Assembly (NCBI GenBank): GCA_030017955.1
Contig: JASEGR010000019.1
Span: 1-41,230, forward strand
Origin: Candidatus Eisenbacteria bacterium
GTDB lineage: Bacteria > Eisenbacteria > RBG-16-71-46 > JASEGR01
DNA: 41,230 nt
Direction of reading: 5' to 3'
Of the stretch, positions 32,983-41,230 are shown in pieces. The position numbers and the translations under genes are program-made. The notes under the pieces were generated by a model. It was not told the DNA's origin. It saw only the letters and a program-made list of their open reading frames with translations, and ran no database searches. Positions within the stretch are counted from its first letter, which is position 1. Each line of letters begins with the position of its first letter.

Positions 32983-33062
32983 TTGACCAGAACGTGAGGT
33001 ATTGATAGAGTTAGAATGAAACTAGTGAATCCGAGGAGCTCACACCGGCTCTCAGAAGAGCC
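32983..33062 (+). promoter_or_regulatory. Promoter and leader hairpin of the second Kelch gene
   Basis: TTGACC (32983-32988), 17 bp, TAGAGT (33006-33011). The transcript should begin near 33018, after the ATG at 33016, so the ATG at 33070 is the better start. A hairpin GGCTCT-CAGA-AGAGCC (33047-33062) ends 7 bases before that ATG, mirroring the first Kelch gene. Confidence 0.5.
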
Positions 33063-33069
33063 CCAAAGA

Positions 33070-36000
33070 ATGTTTGGCAACTTGTCCATGCACGGGAAGC
33101 TGCAGGGTCTTCCGAGATTGAGACTCCCCTCCCTGAATCTCGTCGCAGTCTCCATTCTTCTTGCTTTCCAGCTCATCGCGCCTGGATTCGCCCTATCTTC
33201 CGAGAGTCAGGACGAACTTCCTGCCCTGACCCCTGAGGAGGTGAGCGGGAAGACTGTCGAATCTTTCGTCTGGTCGGCCCTTCCCTTCGCTTCGCCTGAT
33301 GCCAGGAATCTCCACACTCTTACCTTCGCTCAAGGGATGTCGAAGGCAATACTTTTCGGCGGCTGGAATGGAAGCACTCTGCTGGACGATGTCTGGAGCC
33401 TCGATCCCGTCAGTGGAGCGTGGAAGAGGCTATTCTGCGGAGGAGCAATCCCCGGCAGGAGAAGCCATGGCACCATATACGACCCCGATAGTAATCGAGT
33501 GATTGTGTTCGGCGGGTTCCGGGGCACTTACCTGAACGATGTGTGGGCGCTCGATTTGAATTCACAATCGTGGCGCGAGCTCCTCCCTTCAGGCACCCTC
33601 CCTCCTGCCCGAAGTAATCATGCCGTTGTTTACGACACCGAAAGAAAGCGTCTCATAACGTTTGGAGGTTTCGGCGGGACGATTCTCGGGAATGTGTGGG
33701 CGCTCGATCTCGGCTCTCTCACGTGGAAAAAGCTTGTTGCGACCGGGGATGCTCCCCCGCCTCTCTTTGGCTGTTCGGCAGTCTGGGACCCATTGGAAGG
33801 AAGAGTCCTTGTCTTCGGCGGAGATGACGGAACTTCTCCCGGAAACGACATCTGGTCACTCGATACAGAGACACTGAGCTGGCACCGGATCATCGCTCGC
33901 GGGACTCTGCCCGAGGCCAGGTCCACCCACACTGCGATATTTGACCTGGTTCACGGTAAGATGCTGGTTGCCGGCGGATTCGGATCGTGGTACCTGAACG
34001 ATGTCTGGAGCTTCGATGTAAAGAGACTTACCTGGCAAGAGATTTCTCCATCTCCTCTTCCCATGTGCGCAGATGCAGCGTTTGTCTATGATCCTCTGAG
34101 GGAACAGGCGCTTCTCTTCGGCGGCTGGAATGGAGCATTCCTGGACGATACGTGGAAGCTTGATCTCAACAATCTCACGTGGTCTCAGGTTTTTCCCTCT
34201 GCTTCGTTTCCGACAGCAAGGAGAGGTGCCTCATTTGTCCGCAATGAAGAAGGAAAAAGAATCTTCATGTTCGGTGGATTCGATGGAACGACCTATTTCG
34301 ATGAACTCTGGAAGTTCAATCTCGAAGATCTCTCGTGGGAGCTTCTCATTCCGTCCGGGACACCGCCCTCCGGAAGGGAACGCCATGCTGTGCTCTTGGA
34401 CCGGAACAGAAATCGCATGGTTGTTCAGGGTGGTTATGACGGCGCGACCTACCTTGACGATATTTGGATTCTGGATCTTTCGACTTATGCATGGAGGGAG
34501 CTTGCACAGACAGCCCGTCCATCGGGGAGAGCCGGTCATACCCTTGTGTATGACAATCTCACCGGAAGCTTTGTGCTCTTTGGAGGAGAAGACGGCGCGG
34601 GGTTCCTGGGAGACCTCTCGGTCGGGTGGCCTTCAGAATACGAGATAACGTGGGAATCCAAGACTCAGACGCTTCCCTATCCCGGTGCGAGAACCGGACA
34701 ATTCGGAACTTATGTTCCGTCAACGAATTCTGTTCTTATCTTCGGCGGCAGGGACGGCATGCGGCTTTTCAATGATCTCTGGTCGCTCAATATGGCCAAT
34801 TTCACCTGGCACCAAATCACGTCTTCAGGATCTGTGCCGCCGAAGAGGTCGGGGCATGCCGGCGCTCTCACCGAGTCGGAAAATGAGCTTCTTGTTTTTG
34901 GCGGATGGGCAGGCGCTCACGTGAATGACCTCTGGAGCTTCGACATCCAGAATGAGACATGGAGTGAAGTCGGGGCTTCAGGAGATATCCCGCCGGGTTC
35001 GGAGTTTGTGTCCTTCGTCTCCGACACCTCGGCAAGAAGATGCTACCTTTTTGGCGGATTCAACGGATGGTTTCTCGGAGACGGATACATGCTTTATCAG
35101 TTTTCTCCTTCTCCCACTCCGCTTTACCCTGCGGATGGCTCGAAGATAGGCAGCAGGGCTCCATCTCTCACGGTTCTCAACTCGCCTTCTGACGGAAAAA
35201 CCCTGGCCTATTTCTTCGAACTGGATGCGGTTTCTGAGTTCGATTCGCCTCAGGTTCTCAAGTCACCCGGAATCTACCAGGGACTTTTCGGGAGAACCTC
35301 ATGGACTGTTTCGTCGCCTCTGTCTTACAACGCCACGTACTACTTCAGAGTAAGAAGCTATGACGGTGCGAGTTTCTCGGGATGGACTGCGCCTATCCGG
35401 TTTTCTGTTGTTACATCCGATACCACTCTCTCCCCGACCACGCCCAGGCCGGCAGGTCCGACCGAGCTTTCAATCGTGTATCAGACTTTTCCTGATTTGA
35501 GGGTCCTTAACTCAAGAGACTCGGAAGACAGTATCATTTCCTACTTCTTTGAGCTGGATGCAACCGATGAGTTCTCGACTCCGCTTCTGCAGGTGTCGCC
35601 CGGCATGGCCCAGGGACTGCTGCAGACTTCCTGGAAAGTGGAAAAGAGACTCACAAGGAATGGCTGGTACTACTGGCGCGCGCGCGCATTCGACGGTGAG
35701 TACTTCAGCGATTGGATGGACCCAACGAGATTTCTCGTCTTCTGGGGAGCTACTCCCGCTCCCGACGTTTCCTTCTTCAGCAACAGAAATAGGAATGGCA
35801 TCGAGCTTTCCTGGGATCCAAAATCATTCCCGCAAGGAACAAGCTTTGACGTTTACAGATCTGAGTCTGAAGCAGGAGAATTCACTAAGCTGAGCTCAGT
35901 TTCTGTGCGCGGGAGCTCAACCGGCGAACGCTTGAGTTTCCTTGACGGCGCCCCGCTGTCATCACAGAGCTTCTATCTTCTTCTCGTGAAGAATCCATCC

Positions 36001-36321
36001 GGCGAATTGTCGCTCTACGGCCCTGTCGCAGAGTCACCTGTCCGGTATGTTGACTCTCTTGAGCTTTCACCGAGCCCGTTCAGCGAGACTGTGACGATTA
36101 CGTTTGCAGTTTCGAAGGAGACCCGCGCCTCGGTCCGTATCTACGACGTTCGGGGAAGGCTGGTAAAAACAGTTCTTGACGAGAAACTCTCTCCTTCGTC
36201 AAAGTCTGTCACCTGGGACGGAAGAGATGCTTCGGGAGTGAGAGTTGGTTCCGGCATCTACATTTGTTCTCTCAAGACGGACAACGTTTCGCTATCCCGC
36301 AAGCTCGTCTTCGTCAGATAG
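33070..36321 (+). CDS. Secreted Kelch-repeat protein with Ig-like modules and FlgD-type C-terminus
   Basis: A 1083-residue exported protein. The ATG at 33070 is chosen because its N-terminus lines up with that of the first Kelch protein and the predicted promoter leaves no room for the ATG at 33016. Signal helix (LNLVAVSILLAFQLIAPGFA), twelve Kelch motifs (two six-bladed propellers, to about residue 690), two fibronectin/Ig-like modules each with an ...YFFELDA... strand, a third FnIII-like module, and a FlgD-like C-terminal domain (LELSPSPFSETVTITFAVSK, VRIYDVRGRLVKTV, WDGRDASG, LSRKLVFVR). The last domain is used for export or surface attachment in FCB-group bacteria. Tandem paralogue of 30784-32934. 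Confidence 0.9.
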   Translation: MFGNLSMHGKLQGLPRLRLPSLNLVAVSILLAFQLIAPGFALSSESQDELPALTPEEVSGKTVESFVWSALPFASPDARNLHTLTFAQGMSKAILFGGWNGSTLLDDVWSLDPVSGAWKRLFCGGAIPGRRSHGTIYDPDSNRVIVFGGFRGTYLNDVWALDLNSQSWRELLPSGTLPPARSNHAVVYDTERKRLITFGGFGGTILGNVWALDLGSLTWKKLVATGDAPPPLFGCSAVWDPLEGRVLVFGGDDGTSPGNDIWSLDTETLSWHRIIARGTLPEARSTHTAIFDLVHGKMLVAGGFGSWYLNDVWSFDVKRLTWQEISPSPLPMCADAAFVYDPLREQALLFGGWNGAFLDDTWKLDLNNLTWSQVFPSASFPTARRGASFVRNEEGKRIFMFGGFDGTTYFDELWKFNLEDLSWELLIPSGTPPSGRERHAVLLDRNRNRMVVQGGYDGATYLDDIWILDLSTYAWRELAQTARPSGRAGHTLVYDNLTGSFVLFGGEDGAGFLGDLSVGWPSEYEITWESKTQTLPYPGARTGQFGTYVPSTNSVLIFGGRDGMRLFNDLWSLNMANFTWHQITSSGSVPPKRSGHAGALTESENELLVFGGWAGAHVNDLWSFDIQNETWSEVGASGDIPPGSEFVSFVSDTSARRCYLFGGFNGWFLGDGYMLYQFSPSPTPLYPADGSKIGSRAPSLTVLNSPSDGKTLAYFFELDAVSEFDSPQVLKSPGIYQGLFGRTSWTVSSPLSYNATYYFRVRSYDGASFSGWTAPIRFSVVTSDTTLSPTTPRPAGPTELSIVYQTFPDLRVLNSRDSEDSIISYFFELDATDEFSTPLLQVSPGMAQGLLQTSWKVEKRLTRNGWYYWRARAFDGEYFSDWMDPTRFLVFWGATPAPDVSFFSNRNRNGIELSWDPKSFPQGTSFDVYRSESEAGEFTKLSSVSVRGSSTGERLSFLDGAPLSSQSFYLLLVKNPSGELSLYGPVAESPVRYVDSLELSPSPFSETVTITFAVSKETRASVRIYDVRGRLVKTVLDEKLSPSSKSVTWDGRDASGVRVGSGIYICSLKTDNVSLSRKLVFVR

Positions 36322-36364: not shown

Positions 36365-37534
36365 TTGGCGTCTGGACAAATCTATCCGAGTCTGCGAGTA
36401 AGAAGAAAAGAAGGAAGATGGTTCAGGCTCTTCCCGCTTTTTTTTGCAGCGTTTCTTCTTCTTTCCACCCTTGTCTTCTACCATGTTTTATGGGTCAAGC
36501 TGCCCTGGCTTCCCATGAACATTCTCATAGTCGATAAGACCGTCCCGCTGAAAAACTTCAACGAGCACAACGCCATCGTCTGGATTCTCAAGCACTACAA
36601 GGCAGGGCCAAGGGAAGGGAAATTTCTCTCGAACAATGACTTCCTTGGGTACCACCCAAATGAAAGAAGGTGTGAGACTCTGCTTTCCACTGATATCTCC
36701 CGCTATGATCTCATCTACCTTGCCGACACGTACGGAACATACGACTACAAAATGGGCTTCAAGGAATACGAAGCGAATCTCCCGCGAAAGAATCTGGACG
36801 TTTCTCTGGTCTGCGGCGGATTGGACAGAAAAGAAGCGCAGATGCTTCTCACAAGCACCAAGCAGGCCGCGACAATAATTGGCGAGTTCAACATCCTTGG
36901 CTTTCCCACATCTCTAGACCCCGAAGCTCTTCAGACTCTGGAGAAAGTCTTCAAGATCAAATGGACCGGATGGTACGGAAAGCACTACGACAATCTTTCC
37001 TCGACTCCCAAATGGGTCAAGGACCTGTATGAAGCCGTCTATGGCGAAGATTGGGGCTTCGCCGGGCCCGGGACTGTCATGGTCAAGAAAAGCGAGATGG
37101 TTGGAATTGAACCCGACGTGATGATTTTCAAAGATCCTCGCGGGTACATTCGCCCCTTCGCCATTTTTGTCAAAAAGACTCCGCTGACCGAGGGCATTGA
37201 CTCACCGCTGACCTACGACGGATGGTTTGAGGTTGTGAAACCGGAGAAGGGAACTGAAACGATTGCCTATTATCACATGGCGGAAACTCCCGCTCATCTT
37301 GCAGAGCTCCGCGAGCGCGGCCTCAAGCCCATCTTCCCTGCAATCGTCGTCAACAGGACGAGAGCGAAAGCAATCTACTTTGCCGGAGATTTCGCCGATA
37401 ACAAATTTCTCGCTTTGTCCCCCACCTTCTTCGGGACAGAGTATGCGATGAAGGCGCTTTCGCGCGCGAACCGGACGGACAATTTCTTCTGGAGGTTCTA
37501 CGTCCCGCTCATGAGAAATGTGCTATATTGGTAG
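36365..37534 (+). CDS. Membrane-anchored protein of unknown function
   Basis: A 389-residue protein with a basic N-terminus, one membrane helix (LFPLFFAAFLLLSTLVFYHV) and a large domain outside the membrane beginning LPMNILIVDKTVPLKNFNEH. Further distinctive pieces are IVWILKHYKAGPREGKFLSN, DLIYLADTYGTYDY and IGEFNILGFPTSLDP. I recall similar ILIVDKTVP... hypothetical proteins in several phyla, with a class I amidotransferase-like feel, but no named family. The start is a TTG at 36365 without a clear ribosome site; no other start is in frame before the membrane helix. It lies between the Kelch gene and a GT-C glycosyltransferase, so a role in surface glycan work is possible but unproven. Confidence 0.7.
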   Translation: MASGQIYPSLRVRRKEGRWFRLFPLFFAAFLLLSTLVFYHVLWVKLPWLPMNILIVDKTVPLKNFNEHNAIVWILKHYKAGPREGKFLSNNDFLGYHPNERRCETLLSTDISRYDLIYLADTYGTYDYKMGFKEYEANLPRKNLDVSLVCGGLDRKEAQMLLTSTKQAATIIGEFNILGFPTSLDPEALQTLEKVFKIKWTGWYGKHYDNLSSTPKWVKDLYEAVYGEDWGFAGPGTVMVKKSEMVGIEPDVMIFKDPRGYIRPFAIFVKKTPLTEGIDSPLTYDGWFEVVKPEKGTETIAYYHMAETPAHLAELRERGLKPIFPAIVVNRTRAKAIYFAGDFADNKFLALSPTFFGTEYAMKALSRANRTDNFFWRFYVPLMRNVLYW

Positions 37535-37545
37535 CGGCCTTGAGC

Positions 37546-37727
37546 GCGGCTCGGGTGCAGATTTGTGATGCCGACTGAGCCGCGAGCTGGCTTTCGCGGG
37601 AGGGATGGGAACCCATCTTGGCGAGCAAGGTGGGGATACCCAGCCCTTTAGAGGCTGGGAGGGGCAGGGATTCCCCGCCTAGCGAGCCGGTAGATGGGTC
37701 ATCCCGAAGCGGAGCCACCAACGGCTC
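37546..37727 (+). other. GC-rich block of consecutive hairpins
   Basis: In the 296-bp gap between two genes, at least four perfect stems occur in series: GCGGCTC/GAGCCGC (37546-37552, 37577-37583), GATGGG/CCCATC (37604-37617), CCCAGCC/GGCTGGG with loop CTTTAGA (37639-37659) and GAGCC/GGCTC (37712-37727). A GGGG..CCCC pair (37661-37676) lies between the last two. No protein-coding signal is seen on either strand. It may be a structured RNA, a long leader for the small membrane protein gene, or the end of a lost IS200/IS605-type element, whose ends often carry a hairpin of the third kind. Confidence 0.45.
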
Positions 37728-37830
37728 AGTCGCCATCACGCATCATCGGCGCACGAGTAGGGTCCGGCCCGGTTCGACTCCGAGAAGGCCGCGTCATCGT
37801 TCCTGGCCAGAAGCAGGCGAAGGACAAGTC

Positions 37831-37977
37831 GTGACCAACCAAGAGTACAGACTCCCATCGGGTGTGTCGGCAGTCGTCGTGCTCTTACTTCTCGCGGGCT
37901 TTGTCGCCTACCTGGCCTATCACTTTGAGCTTTTCGGTCTGATGCGGGATTTCGTAGGAGCGCTGAGAGGGCAATAG
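37831..37977 (+). CDS. 48-residue single-pass membrane protein
   Basis: A GTG at 37831 with AAGGA six bases upstream begins a 48-residue frame: a short polar N-terminus (TNQEYRLPSG), one membrane helix (VSAVVVLLLLAGFVAYLAYH) and a short amphipathic tail (MRDFVGALRGQ). It ends 28 bp before the GT-C gene and is probably co-transcribed with it. Small single-helix proteins beside glycosyltransferases often act as partners or stabilisers; that role is a guess. An upstream extension of the frame lies in the hairpin block and is unlikely to be translated. Confidence 0.6.
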   Translation: MTNQEYRLPSGVSAVVVLLLLAGFVAYLAYHFELFGLMRDFVGALRGQ

Positions 37978-38005: not shown

Positions 38006-40381
38006 GTGCATCTGATTTCTCTCCTGGTAACCTCAGCCGTAATCTTCCTGTCGTTCCTTCCTTATTGTGCCAGAATCTTTCCACTGTGGTCAGAGCGAAT
38101 CATGTCCAGTGCAGCTCTTGCCACCATCGATGTCATCGTCGTCGAAACCATTCTCGGCATCTCTGGCAATCTGACGAGACCTCTCACAGTCGGCGGTTCG
38201 GTCCTTCTTTCTCTTGTTTTCCTTTCCTTTTCACTTCTCAGGATAAGAAAGCAGCCTCCGCCTCCCCCAAGAAGCGCAAAGAAGAATGGGGGCTTCGCCC
38301 CCGGGCTTGTCCTTTGCTTCGTGTCGCTTGGATTTGCGTACCTCCTCATTCTGCTGCTCGCTGCTATCACGCCGCCATACTCCTGGGATTCTCTCACCTA
38401 TCACCTCACGGCAGTCTTTGCCTGGATTTCTGAAAGAAGGCTCATGGTTCCTCATTTTCCGGGCGCACCGATGTGGTATCCGATGAACGGTGAGCTCCTC
38501 ACGCTCTGGACGTTTGTCGCAGGCGGTGCAAAGGCAGTAAACTTTTCTCAGCTTCCCTTCTCTTTCCTTGGCGGGCTTGCATGCTACAGTATCTCGAGGA
38601 AATTCAGCGCCGGCAGCTACTCCTTCTACTCATTCATTCTTTTCTCTGCAACGCCGGTCATCATGATTCAGTCACTCACCCAATACAACGATGTGGTCTA
38701 TGCCTGCTTCTTTCTCCTTTCACTCGCCTTCCTTGTCGGATTTCTCAAGGCCGGTGCCAGGCAGTACTTGTTCTTCTCTGCGATCTCATTCGGGCTCTTC
38801 CTCGGAACGAAGGCAACGGCGCTTTACTCATGGATTCCACTTGCCCTGATTCTCATTGCCGGTGTTGCAGGAAGAAAGGAACTTGCGCGCGTCTTCATAA
38901 GAACACTGCCATTCCTTCTAATCATTGTGATCATATGCGGAGGGTTTTTCTATCTGAGGAACCTGGTCCTCACCGGGAATATTGTTTTTCCGGTAACGGT
39001 GAAGTTTCTGGGAAAGACTGTCATGCCGGGGCTCGTCGAGAACATATCAGGCGAGCTCCAGGAATCGTGGTTCGTCAAGAGGTCATTCGACTGGATTCTC
39101 TATCCGCTTTTTGAGACTTTTCACGGGAAGCGCGTTTACGGCGTAGAGAATGGATTCGGCATCCAGTTCCTGCTTGGTCTTATCTCTCTTCCGTTCGCTC
39201 TCTTTGTATCGCTCAAGAAAAAAGACATCGTTCTCTCCACACTCTTTGTCACCGCAATTCCAGTAGCAGTACTGGTGTGGCTTACCATCCATCCATACAG
39301 AGAGCCAAGATATTTAATCAGCCTTTGCGGGATTTCCGCAATCTCTATTGTCTATCTCGCTTCGGCAATGACCGGCTGGGCAGGAAAAGTTGTCACGGTG
39401 CTCATGGTGTTTGCCACTCTTGCCTCGACTCTTCTTACTCTTCCGCAGCTTGTCCCGCGGCAAACCGAAGTTCTTTCACAATTGACAAGGTCGGGGGTCC
39501 TTGCGGTCTATGACTACTATAAAGCCGAATATGGAGACCTTGGCGAAGGATGGAAGTGGATCGATGAGCACACAAAAGATGGAGACCTTATTGCCGTGAC
39601 CTATAGCGAGCTGACGTCGCCGCTCTTCGGCGAATCCGGGATGAGGCGGGTGAAGTATTTCCCGACTGAAAGAACTGCTTTTCCGAACCTCGAGTCCAGT
39701 ACTTCGCCTGACAGATGGCCGGCACTCCTGTTCGAAAAAGGAGTGAAGTATCTCTTTTTGTGGGAGCCATCCTTCTCTGGCGGTTCGCGAATGGAGAGAA
39801 CGATTGCCGATAAGAATCCCAGCGTTCTCAGAAAAGAAATCTCGTGGGAGAAGACTGCCTTCGGCGATCTGACGATTTTCTCGGTCGGAAAGCCCGAACC
39901 TCCCGAATCAAGGACAGAGGAAATCCACACGGTGGGAACGGAGGGCATCTGGTATCCGGTTCCAACTGAGCATGGGACAATCTCAATAAATCGTGAGCCG
40001 CTCCCGGAGACCTGCGAAGTGCGCTACAGGTTCGCAAGACAGACTCCGGGAGACTATGTCGAGATGGAGAGAATGCTCACAGAGACCGATATGTCTCCAT
40101 TCAAGACGCTCTCCTTCGAGATTGACAGAGGCGATTCGCGGGATCTCCTCCAGGTCTATCTGAAGGGCAGCGATCCAAGACAGCAACAGCGGCACAACAT
40201 AAATCTTTTTCAACTCGGACCGGCATGGAACGAAGTGAGTCTGGATCTGAGGCAGCCGAGCTTCGAGACAAAGAAGTTTGCGCTTGAGAACGTAAGGTCG
40301 CTGAGCTTTGTCTTCGTCCAGTCCACAGTCACCGGGCCCCAGGAAAGGCGGATCCGCATCAAAAACCTGCACTTCAGGTGA
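38006..40381 (+). CDS. GT-C type membrane glycosyltransferase (ArnT/PMT-like)
   Basis: A 791-residue polytopic protein. GTG start at 38006 with GGAG upstream. About twelve membrane helices fill the first 490 residues. The first large periplasmic loop has PPYSWDSLTYHL, the acidic catalytic motif region of lipid-linked sugar transferases (GT39/GT83-like), followed by PGAPMWYPMNGEL. The C-terminal 300 residues are soluble; the last 150 (TLSFEIDRGDSRDLLQVYLK, LGPAWNEVSLDLRQPS) look like a CIA30/carbohydrate-binding jelly-roll. Such enzymes add a sugar from a polyprenyl phosphate donor to protein or glycan outside the inner membrane. The acceptor is unknown; the neighbouring surface proteins are candidates. 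Confidence 0.82.
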   Translation: MHLISLLVTSAVIFLSFLPYCARIFPLWSERIMSSAALATIDVIVVETILGISGNLTRPLTVGGSVLLSLVFLSFSLLRIRKQPPPPPRSAKKNGGFAPGLVLCFVSLGFAYLLILLLAAITPPYSWDSLTYHLTAVFAWISERRLMVPHFPGAPMWYPMNGELLTLWTFVAGGAKAVNFSQLPFSFLGGLACYSISRKFSAGSYSFYSFILFSATPVIMIQSLTQYNDVVYACFFLLSLAFLVGFLKAGARQYLFFSAISFGLFLGTKATALYSWIPLALILIAGVAGRKELARVFIRTLPFLLIIVIICGGFFYLRNLVLTGNIVFPVTVKFLGKTVMPGLVENISGELQESWFVKRSFDWILYPLFETFHGKRVYGVENGFGIQFLLGLISLPFALFVSLKKKDIVLSTLFVTAIPVAVLVWLTIHPYREPRYLISLCGISAISIVYLASAMTGWAGKVVTVLMVFATLASTLLTLPQLVPRQTEVLSQLTRSGVLAVYDYYKAEYGDLGEGWKWIDEHTKDGDLIAVTYSELTSPLFGESGMRRVKYFPTERTAFPNLESSTSPDRWPALLFEKGVKYLFLWEPSFSGGSRMERTIADKNPSVLRKEISWEKTAFGDLTIFSVGKPEPPESRTEEIHTVGTEGIWYPVPTEHGTISINREPLPETCEVRYRFARQTPGDYVEMERMLTETDMSPFKTLSFEIDRGDSRDLLQVYLKGSDPRQQQRHNINLFQLGPAWNEVSLDLRQPSFETKKFALENVRSLSFVFVQSTVTGPQERRIRIKNLHFR

Positions 40382-40785: not shown

Positions 40786-40814
40786 TTGACATATAGACGT
40801 GCCTGCTGTATGCT
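40786..40814 (+). promoter_or_regulatory. Transposase promoter in the IS end
   Basis: TTGACA (40786-40791), 17-bp spacer, TATGCT (40809-40814). The -10 nearly touches the start of the transposase gene, so the message is leaderless or very short-leadered. Confidence 0.5.
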
Positions 40815-40815
40815 G

Positions 40816-41230
40816 ATGATCGTGAGCAGAACAGCAGCACCTATACTGTTGTCTCCTGAAGAGCGTGCCACCTTGGATGGTTGGGCACGTGGAAGAAGCC
40901 TTCCTCTGCGACTGGTTGAGCGGGCGAAGATTATAGGGATGGCGGCAGAGGGCATGCAGAGTCAGGACATTGCGCACGAGCTGGGGGTTTCCCGGCCTAC
41001 GGTACAGCTGTGGCGGCAGCGCTTTCTTGCTCTTCGGCTGGAGGGTCTTAGGAAAGATGCACCGCGTCCCGGACGAATACCCCGGATTTCTCGAAAGAAA
41101 GTTCAGGCAGTTATTGAGGCCACACTGCACACGAAACCATCCAATGCCACGCACTGGAGTACGCGCACGATGGCGAGAGCCCAGGGGCTCAGCGAGGCCA
41201 CCATACGGCGCATATGGAGGAGCCATAACC
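40816..41230 (+). CDS. IS630-family transposase, N-terminal part
   Basis: The frame is open to the window edge, giving 138 residues of a transposase normally about 340-350 long. An N-terminal LSPEERATLDGWARG leads into a helix-turn-helix (SQDIAHELGVSRPTVQLWRQ) and a second DNA-binding helix set (GLRKDAPRPGR, then WSTRTMARAQGLSEATIRRI), the usual N-terminal half of IS630/Tc1 transposases. The catalytic DDE region lies beyond the edge. Start could be the ATG at 40816 or the GTG at 40822; an ATG at 40810 lies inside the -10 box. Confidence 0.88.
   Translation, partial: MIVSRTAAPILLSPEERATLDGWARGRSLPLRLVERAKIIGMAAEGMQSQDIAHELGVSRPTVQLWRQRFLALRLEGLRKDAPRPGRIPRISRKKVQAVIEATLHTKPSNATHWSTRTMARAQGLSEATIRRIWRSHN

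Follow-up and report, generated by a model that had tools for sequence, protein, structure and literature searches.

A palindromic intergenic repeat family, probably a non-autonomous mobile element, in a Candidatus Eisenbacteria genome

Results

The locus and the window copy

The window analysed here is the whole 41,230-nucleotide stretch of contig JASEGR010000019.1 (GenBank assembly GCA_030017955.1, Candidatus Eisenbacteria bacterium), in which a first-pass annotation had marked a dense block of hairpins without coding sequence at positions 37546 to 37727. At this site we find one copy of a repeat, hereafter element A, located after the stop codon of one ORF and before the next gene, with the following features:

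36365 to 37534, + strand: upstream neighbour, 389-aa ORF, no Pfam match
37561 to 37742, + strand (the best-folding strand): element A, repeat element, from the covariance model, the fold and BLAST copies
37560 to 37582, + strand: left arm of the basal stem, terminal inverted repeat, 87% complementary to 37722 to 37744
37639 to 37659, + strand: apical stem-loop CCCAGCC-CTTTAGA-GGCTGGG, read in the sequence and paired in the fold
37722 to 37744, + strand: right arm of the basal stem, terminal inverted repeat, 87% complementary to 37560 to 37582
37831 to 37977, + strand: possible small downstream ORF (predicted), 48 aa, GTG start, one hydrophobic stretch
38006 to 40381, + strand: next gene downstream, encoding a 791-aa membrane protein that matches PMT_2 weakly (28.2 bits, cut-off 26.1)

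On the + strand, 37561-37743 folds best as one long hairpin of -113.3 kcal/mol, which none of 200 shuffles equalled (mean -72.98, sd 4.87, z -8.28). The two 23-nt arms are 87% complementary with 139 nt between them, and the element therefore passes the 3' end of the marked block by 15-17 bases and begins ~15 bases inside its 5' end. The closely packed perfect stems reported there are real, but all are segments of this one hairpin rather than separate hairpins. The CCCAGCC-CTTTAGA-GGCTGGG hairpin is likewise present, and in three copies of the family (C6, C30, and C40) its arms have changed in step to CCCACCC/GGGTGGG. The minus strand of the window copy also folds strongly (-107.4 kcal/mol, z -9.39), so folding leaves the strand undecided for that copy alone, while a covariance model whose training copies include this one scores it at 185.2 bits on the + strand and 49.6 bits on the minus strand. 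No promoter-like or terminator-like sites were found at the window copy. Separate hairpins acting as terminators were considered and dropped, as none were found in 37400-37900.

The description of the block as lying between two genes is fair, and its freedom from coding sequence is qualified by a mechanical 119-aa ORF (37618-37977, no Pfam match) that starts inside the element; translation from the in-frame GTG at 37831 would yield 48 aa and lie wholly outside the element. That predicted ORF, directly after element A, possibly encodes a membrane peptide. Elsewhere in the window, 33016-36321 encodes a protein of 1101 aa that combines Kelch repeats with a sorting or FlgD-like domain at its C-terminus, and an ORF with HTH_29, HTH_23, and HTH_32 helix-turn-helix domains starts at 40786-41229, at the contig end. 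Proteins with such domains are often IS630-type transposases.

A repeat family of 28 places in one genome

We searched the organism's own genome (3.1 Mb, 248 contigs, 97.3% complete) for further copies, whose existence the first-pass annotation had proposed as a check, and these are present. BLAST gave 28 matches, one of which is the window copy against its own opposite strand, leaving 27 places; 23 of these are full or nearly full and were aligned (alignment A1), while the remaining four are a copy with an internal deletion (C30), one cut short close to the end of a contig (C40), and two fragments of the right-hand part (C13 and C36). A covariance model built from A1, which scored 150 of 877 first-look candidates in this genome, returned 47 matches (26 in element orientation, the other 21 being the reverse strand of those places) and contributed one diverged copy (L069, C31:26433-26586, 75.7 bits), bringing element A to 28 places in total. 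This diverged copy still forms one long hairpin from mostly other letters (-98.2 kcal/mol, z -7.80). When this copy was built into a second covariance model, the search at E up to 1 added only the already known fragment at C13. All pair counts below use the 23 rows of A1, from which the four incomplete copies (L036, L037, L039, and L040) and the diverged L069 are absent.

The element is ~178-182 bp long with a GC content of 0.59-0.67, and core identity among the 23 full copies has a median of 0.908 (range 0.809-0.967). Three copies (C69, C4b, and C35) carry an extra hairpin at the tip, which in C4b still pairs despite different letters. For 24 of 27 places (all but L037 and the fragments L039 and L040) mechanical ORFs allowed a neighbour gene to be assigned on each side, the two running along the element at 7, against it at 12, and in mixed directions at 5. 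By Pfam check of two sites, one copy is situated between two Proton_antipo_M genes for proton-pumping NADH dehydrogenase subunits (both PF00361, one also PF00662), and another between FTSW_RODA_SPOVE (FtsW/RodA-type) and LGT genes. At 17 of 27 places a mechanical ORF overlaps the element; the majority of these ORFs are short, and the longer ones at L021, L022, L028, and L040 simply have their start within it. GC skew in element orientation is positive at 11 and negative at 16 of 27 copies, and says nothing on replication-strand bias because skew here follows the coding strand.

Searches beyond this genome returned no match in a DNA search of 58 other genomes (46 of the same class), with the covariance model in 46 other genomes of the class/phylum set (stricter filters, 57 candidates scored per genome), or in phage and plasmid collections by distant blastn. 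Viral contigs and genome contigs, in collections that may omit this or a very near genome, held no exact match to one 23-mer and one 21-mer, an exact k-mer search that leaves room for diverged copies. The element matched no Rfam family at the gathering score, and relaxing the limit to E 1 gave only two matches, both far below threshold, on the other strand and to unrelated families. Thus, element A appears lineage-specific as far as the compared genomes go.

Compensatory changes keep the pairing

Compensatory changes keep the pairing of the element, mainly in its basal stem. Across A1, 95.9% of cells are standard pairs (94.0% in shuffles), and both sides have changed in 13 of 59 consensus pairs where shuffles gave 5.0 (sd 1.3); the number of such cells is 28 against 8.4, and not one of 500 shuffles reached either value, in a control that ignores the relatedness of the copies. 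Controls with slid pairings gave 5 to 9 pairs with both-side changes. The covariation analysis that had been suggested for this block thus comes out positive, while the covariation term of RNAalifold on A1 is only -1.09 of -81.95 kcal/mol. The basal helix (helix 1) holds the most compensatory pairs, four of five, and the terminal inverted repeats pair in 82.6% (helix 1) and 91.3% (helix 2) of cells over the 23 copies.

A tree of the copies places these changes in time. On inner branches, pair-keeping changes outnumber pair-breaking ones 12:2, and on the tips they are nearly balanced (50:45; Fisher p 0.022), with the caution that this is a FastTree tree of short, similar sequences and that the inner-branch result is 14 events. 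We infer from this excess that selection on structure was stronger in source copies than in inserted ones; it is in the copies that went on to multiply that the fold seems to have counted most.

An alternative reading of these counts is that basal-stem covariation arose without selection, by replication template switching, a known mutational process for imperfect palindromes in which one arm is copied onto the other. In its favor, double changes cluster in a few copies (of 15 on tips, three each in C7, C108, and C2) and in the outermost helices. Such switching leaves unexplained the inner-branch excess of pair-keeping changes, and also a strand bias described below, though that bias is weak in a neutral test. 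We consider template switching a possible but rather unlikely source of the covariation.

Strand preference is suggestive

In all 23 copies of A1 the fold is more stable on the element strand than on the complement (mean -109.2 versus -94.5 kcal/mol). Where the commonest pair is Watson-Crick, G-U exceeds A-C by 48:16 when cells, which are non-independent, are counted (p 8e-5), by 41:16 as tree events (p 0.0013), and by 22:14 when counted by pair columns (p 0.24). When the count is limited to the 39 pairs that the folds of the two strands share, the excess shrinks to 19:9 in cells (p 0.09) and to 18:9 in events (p 0.12), and since it is non-significant under this strand-neutral choice of pairs, the bias of G-U over A-C is suggestive only. 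A structure picked on the opposite strand gives 12 G-U and 19 A-C in that strand's own letters, and the ratio of G-U to A-C is independent of the direction of the neighbours (16:7 along, 20:7 against).

These observations could be read as pointing to a family of structured RNAs that are transcribed, act from the best-folding strand and serve the cell, each copy being a functional locus. Compensatory pairs, better folding of the same strand in all 23 full copies, the G-U excess in cells and tree events, and the long hairpin kept by the diverged copy L069 all speak for such RNAs. Against them stand the loss of significance under strand-neutral pair choice and in the column count, the reversed balance of G-U and A-C when the structure is picked on the opposite strand, the lack of any promoter- or terminator-like site at the window copy and of conserved sequence upstream, and a G-U to A-C ratio that is unrelated to neighbour direction. 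On balance, a cellular RNA family appears unlikely.

Equally doubtful to us is a mobile hairpin that carries nothing but its fold, that is, a strand-specific ~180-nt RNA or single-stranded DNA multiplied by a fold-reading enzyme, in which the letters of the basal stem would drift in compensated pairs and the tip would accept alternative hairpins, as in C69, C4b, and C35. Selection on such a transposable element would act more on its shape than on its sequence.

Ends, insertion sites, and a second repeat family

Counted from the TGAGC...GCTCA anchors, conservation fades after ~15 bases on the left and ~8 bases on the right, and nothing upstream of these ends of element A is conserved. Sequence information is at background there, which argues that no promoter is carried along. 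In the left flanks, whose consensus is GAGTTGTG, 9 of 25 copies have GAGTT or GAGTC at exactly position -15, while the motif is absent from the 35 other offsets examined; the remaining 16 of 25 copies are without this GAGTY tag. Target-site duplications were not detected, the longest direct flank repeat averaging 4.75 within copies and 4.59 across copies (24 copies), a value not above background, and for this reason we do not file element A as a classical DDE-type MITE. A pattern search of the genome for the ends, with up to two mismatches, matched 27 places against 7 for a reversed control; this search, confined to the ends themselves, pointed by itself to no element with the same ends and a transposase gene.

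Pairing extends a few bases past the conserved ends. At flank positions 1-20, the arms of a copy pair better with each other than with those of different copies (0 of 20,000 permutations as good, n=23), as they do at positions 6-20 (p 0.00025) and no longer at 9-24 (p 0.95). This preference for own arms makes the basal stem the clearest case of structure kept beyond sequence. A preference for short dyads at insertion sites is possible. Insertion into pre-existing long palindromes was set aside, as own-arm pairing is gone beyond about position 8.

A second palindromic repeat family, element B, with ends GAGATGTCC...GGACATCTC, occurs in the same genome (L074-L103, e.g., G000:C57:7445-7631), with 39 matches, some of which are pieces of one copy. 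At C63, a 178-bp copy of element A (L016 3331-3508) is nested within element B, which resumes on the far side; relative to the reference at C57, B is split into positions 31-136 and 140-209, with 3 bases unaccounted for. The nested site shares CGAGT with element B, so the GAGTY tag may be partly host sequence. Joints between the two families recur elsewhere: at C43, C8, and C69 the right part of element B follows element A with B's left part absent, and at C13 and C36 a full element B is followed by the right part of element A. A remnant of element B to the right of the window copy was also considered and dropped (best BLAST E 0.03 to 4.7). Separately, the flanks of copies at C63 (second), C38, and C4 (first) hold GGTGATGTGTCCCCGAATT-type sequences or their complement, perhaps a short palindromic repeat family.

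No support for a link to IS200/IS605 elements, and one Y1 gene with different repeats

The first-pass annotation had likened the apical hairpin to those at the ends of IS200/IS605 elements and their guide-like RNAs, and this link finds no support here. The tnpB families PF07282 and PF01385 have no matches in this genome, while the same searches match 6 of 14 and 7 of 14 control genomes, respectively. An IscB-type search (PF14239, RRXRR) also found nothing, but as it matched 0 of 14 control genomes it shows nothing on IscB; neither HEARO nor any other Rfam family was matched. The search for copies beside tnpA or tnpB turned up only one Y1_Tnp gene in the genome, a 229-aa ORF (E 7.8e-13), which carries a different repeat family, namely four copies of the 23-nt palindrome AAATAGGTGACTGTCACTATTTT and its variants, unrelated to element A. 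They are arranged as a RAYT-like unit (L042:3515-4410, G000:C43:21014-21909), with two AAATAGGTGACTGTCACTATTTT-type palindromes on each side of the ORF, and the covariance model found no match to element A at this locus at E 1e-12. The AAATAGGTGACTGTCACTATTTT-type motif also occurs in the flanks of element A copies at C69 and C6.

We also weighed whether a Y1 (HUH) transposase of RAYT/IS200 type might act on element A, in the form of a single-stranded hairpin whose 5' side bears a short unpaired tag, GAGTT or GAGTC. The genome does have a Y1_Tnp gene, folding is strand-specific, target duplications are lacking, and the tag sits at a fixed offset in 9 of 25 left flanks, which resembles the unpaired tetranucleotide tag at one end of REPs as described in PMC3733652. 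However, that gene is flanked by the other palindrome, likely its own partner; element A has ~180 bp and 59 consensus pairs where REPs have 20-40 bp with stems of 5-13 bp (PMC3733652); and the tag is neither GTAG nor CGTC, is missing from 16 of 25 copies, and at the nested copy lies in GAGT that also belongs to element B, so that the signal may be partly host. That element A is such a substrate is quite improbable on these grounds.

A guide RNA, either a fossil or one acting in trans, from an IS200/IS605-type element with tnpB or IscB is very improbable: it has in its favor a short GC-rich hairpin with a TTTAGA loop, presumably of the kind seen in hairpins of such elements, and against it the absence of PF07282 and PF01385 matches, the lack of an Rfam match at gathering score with two sub-threshold hits on the other strand to unrelated families, and a single symmetrical hairpin without the conserved one-sided boundary that would mark a guide.

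Discussion

Element A is probably a non-autonomous, palindromic, intergenic, genome-specific mobile repeat. This reading draws together its dispersed copies, the one long hairpin that each of them forms, the compensatory pairing, and the nested insertion, with mobility itself resting on dispersal and the one nested copy. With MITEs in the broad sense it shares many dispersed copies (28 places), apparently without genes to judge by the lack of a Pfam match in the one ORF that overlaps the window copy, and terminal inverted repeats. In the mechanism we propose, a few source copies would have been multiplied by a transposase or other machinery recognising the folded hairpin, with pairing kept by selection in the source lineages, while inserted copies would decay and lose pairing faster than before insertion. 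Where neighbour genes are transcribed through a copy, their RNA would carry a long hairpin, on which a double-strand ribonuclease or a change of stability could act, by analogy with NEMIS and ERIC; any such effect would be a by-product or secondary.

Together, these results explain the flagged block as a member of a family, and they remove a tempting but unsupported guide-RNA reading. With 23 full copies in one genome and compensated pairs among them, the family offers an unusually good opportunity to learn which strand of a bacterial palindromic repeat is selected for its structure, and whether this happens in source copies or in inserted ones. Elements A and B also form a second layer of mosaic repeats in this genome, which can confuse assembly and annotation.

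Comparison with known repeat systems

In anatomy, element A appears closest to YPAL and ERIC. As described in PMC2229807, YPAL/RU-2 of Yersinia is ~168 bp long, intergenic and palindromic, is GC-balanced rather than A+T-rich, lacks TA termini, and targets sites beside or spanning dyad symmetry. In anatomy, element A is alike in its ~180 bp, its GC content of 0.59-0.67, and flank pairing that extends a few bases past the conserved ends. The two differ in that YPAL has target duplications of 3-26 bp and internal repeats (PMC2229807), whereas element A has no duplication above background and arms that reach its ends. ERIC/IRU and NEMIS/Correia are described there as small dispersed non-coding palindromes whose RNA forms long stem-loops that can affect the neighbouring mRNA (PMC2229807), and element A shares with them, as far as that description goes, its small size, dispersal, lack of coding sequence, palindromic build, and long stem-loop. 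In contrast, ERIC and NEMIS have TA termini and target duplications in that account (PMC2229807), neither of which element A shows on inspection of its ends and in the flank comparison, and element A is larger, GC-rich, and from another organism group.

REP/BIME sequences and REPINs with RAYT also resemble element A in being palindromic, intergenic, and marked by mosaic joints, element A being joined to the second repeat at C63, C43, C8, C69, C13, and C36. Yet its hairpin is ten-fold longer than that of a REP, a 20-40 bp palindrome with a GTAG or CGTC tag; the ~180-bp element A has neither that size nor that tag, and the RAYT gene of its genome carries other repeats. Element A also belongs beside the families of a genome-by-genome survey of structured repeats, which in the passages drawn on here counts 92 families, 67 of them then new (PMC2267715), and like them it is intergenic, shares a stem-loop, and occurs in one genome or genus. 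Those passages make no mention of covariation or compensatory changes (PMC2267715), while for element A covariation was tested. Element A is a new family of a known kind, with its absence elsewhere holding for the sequence collections searched rather than for print at large.
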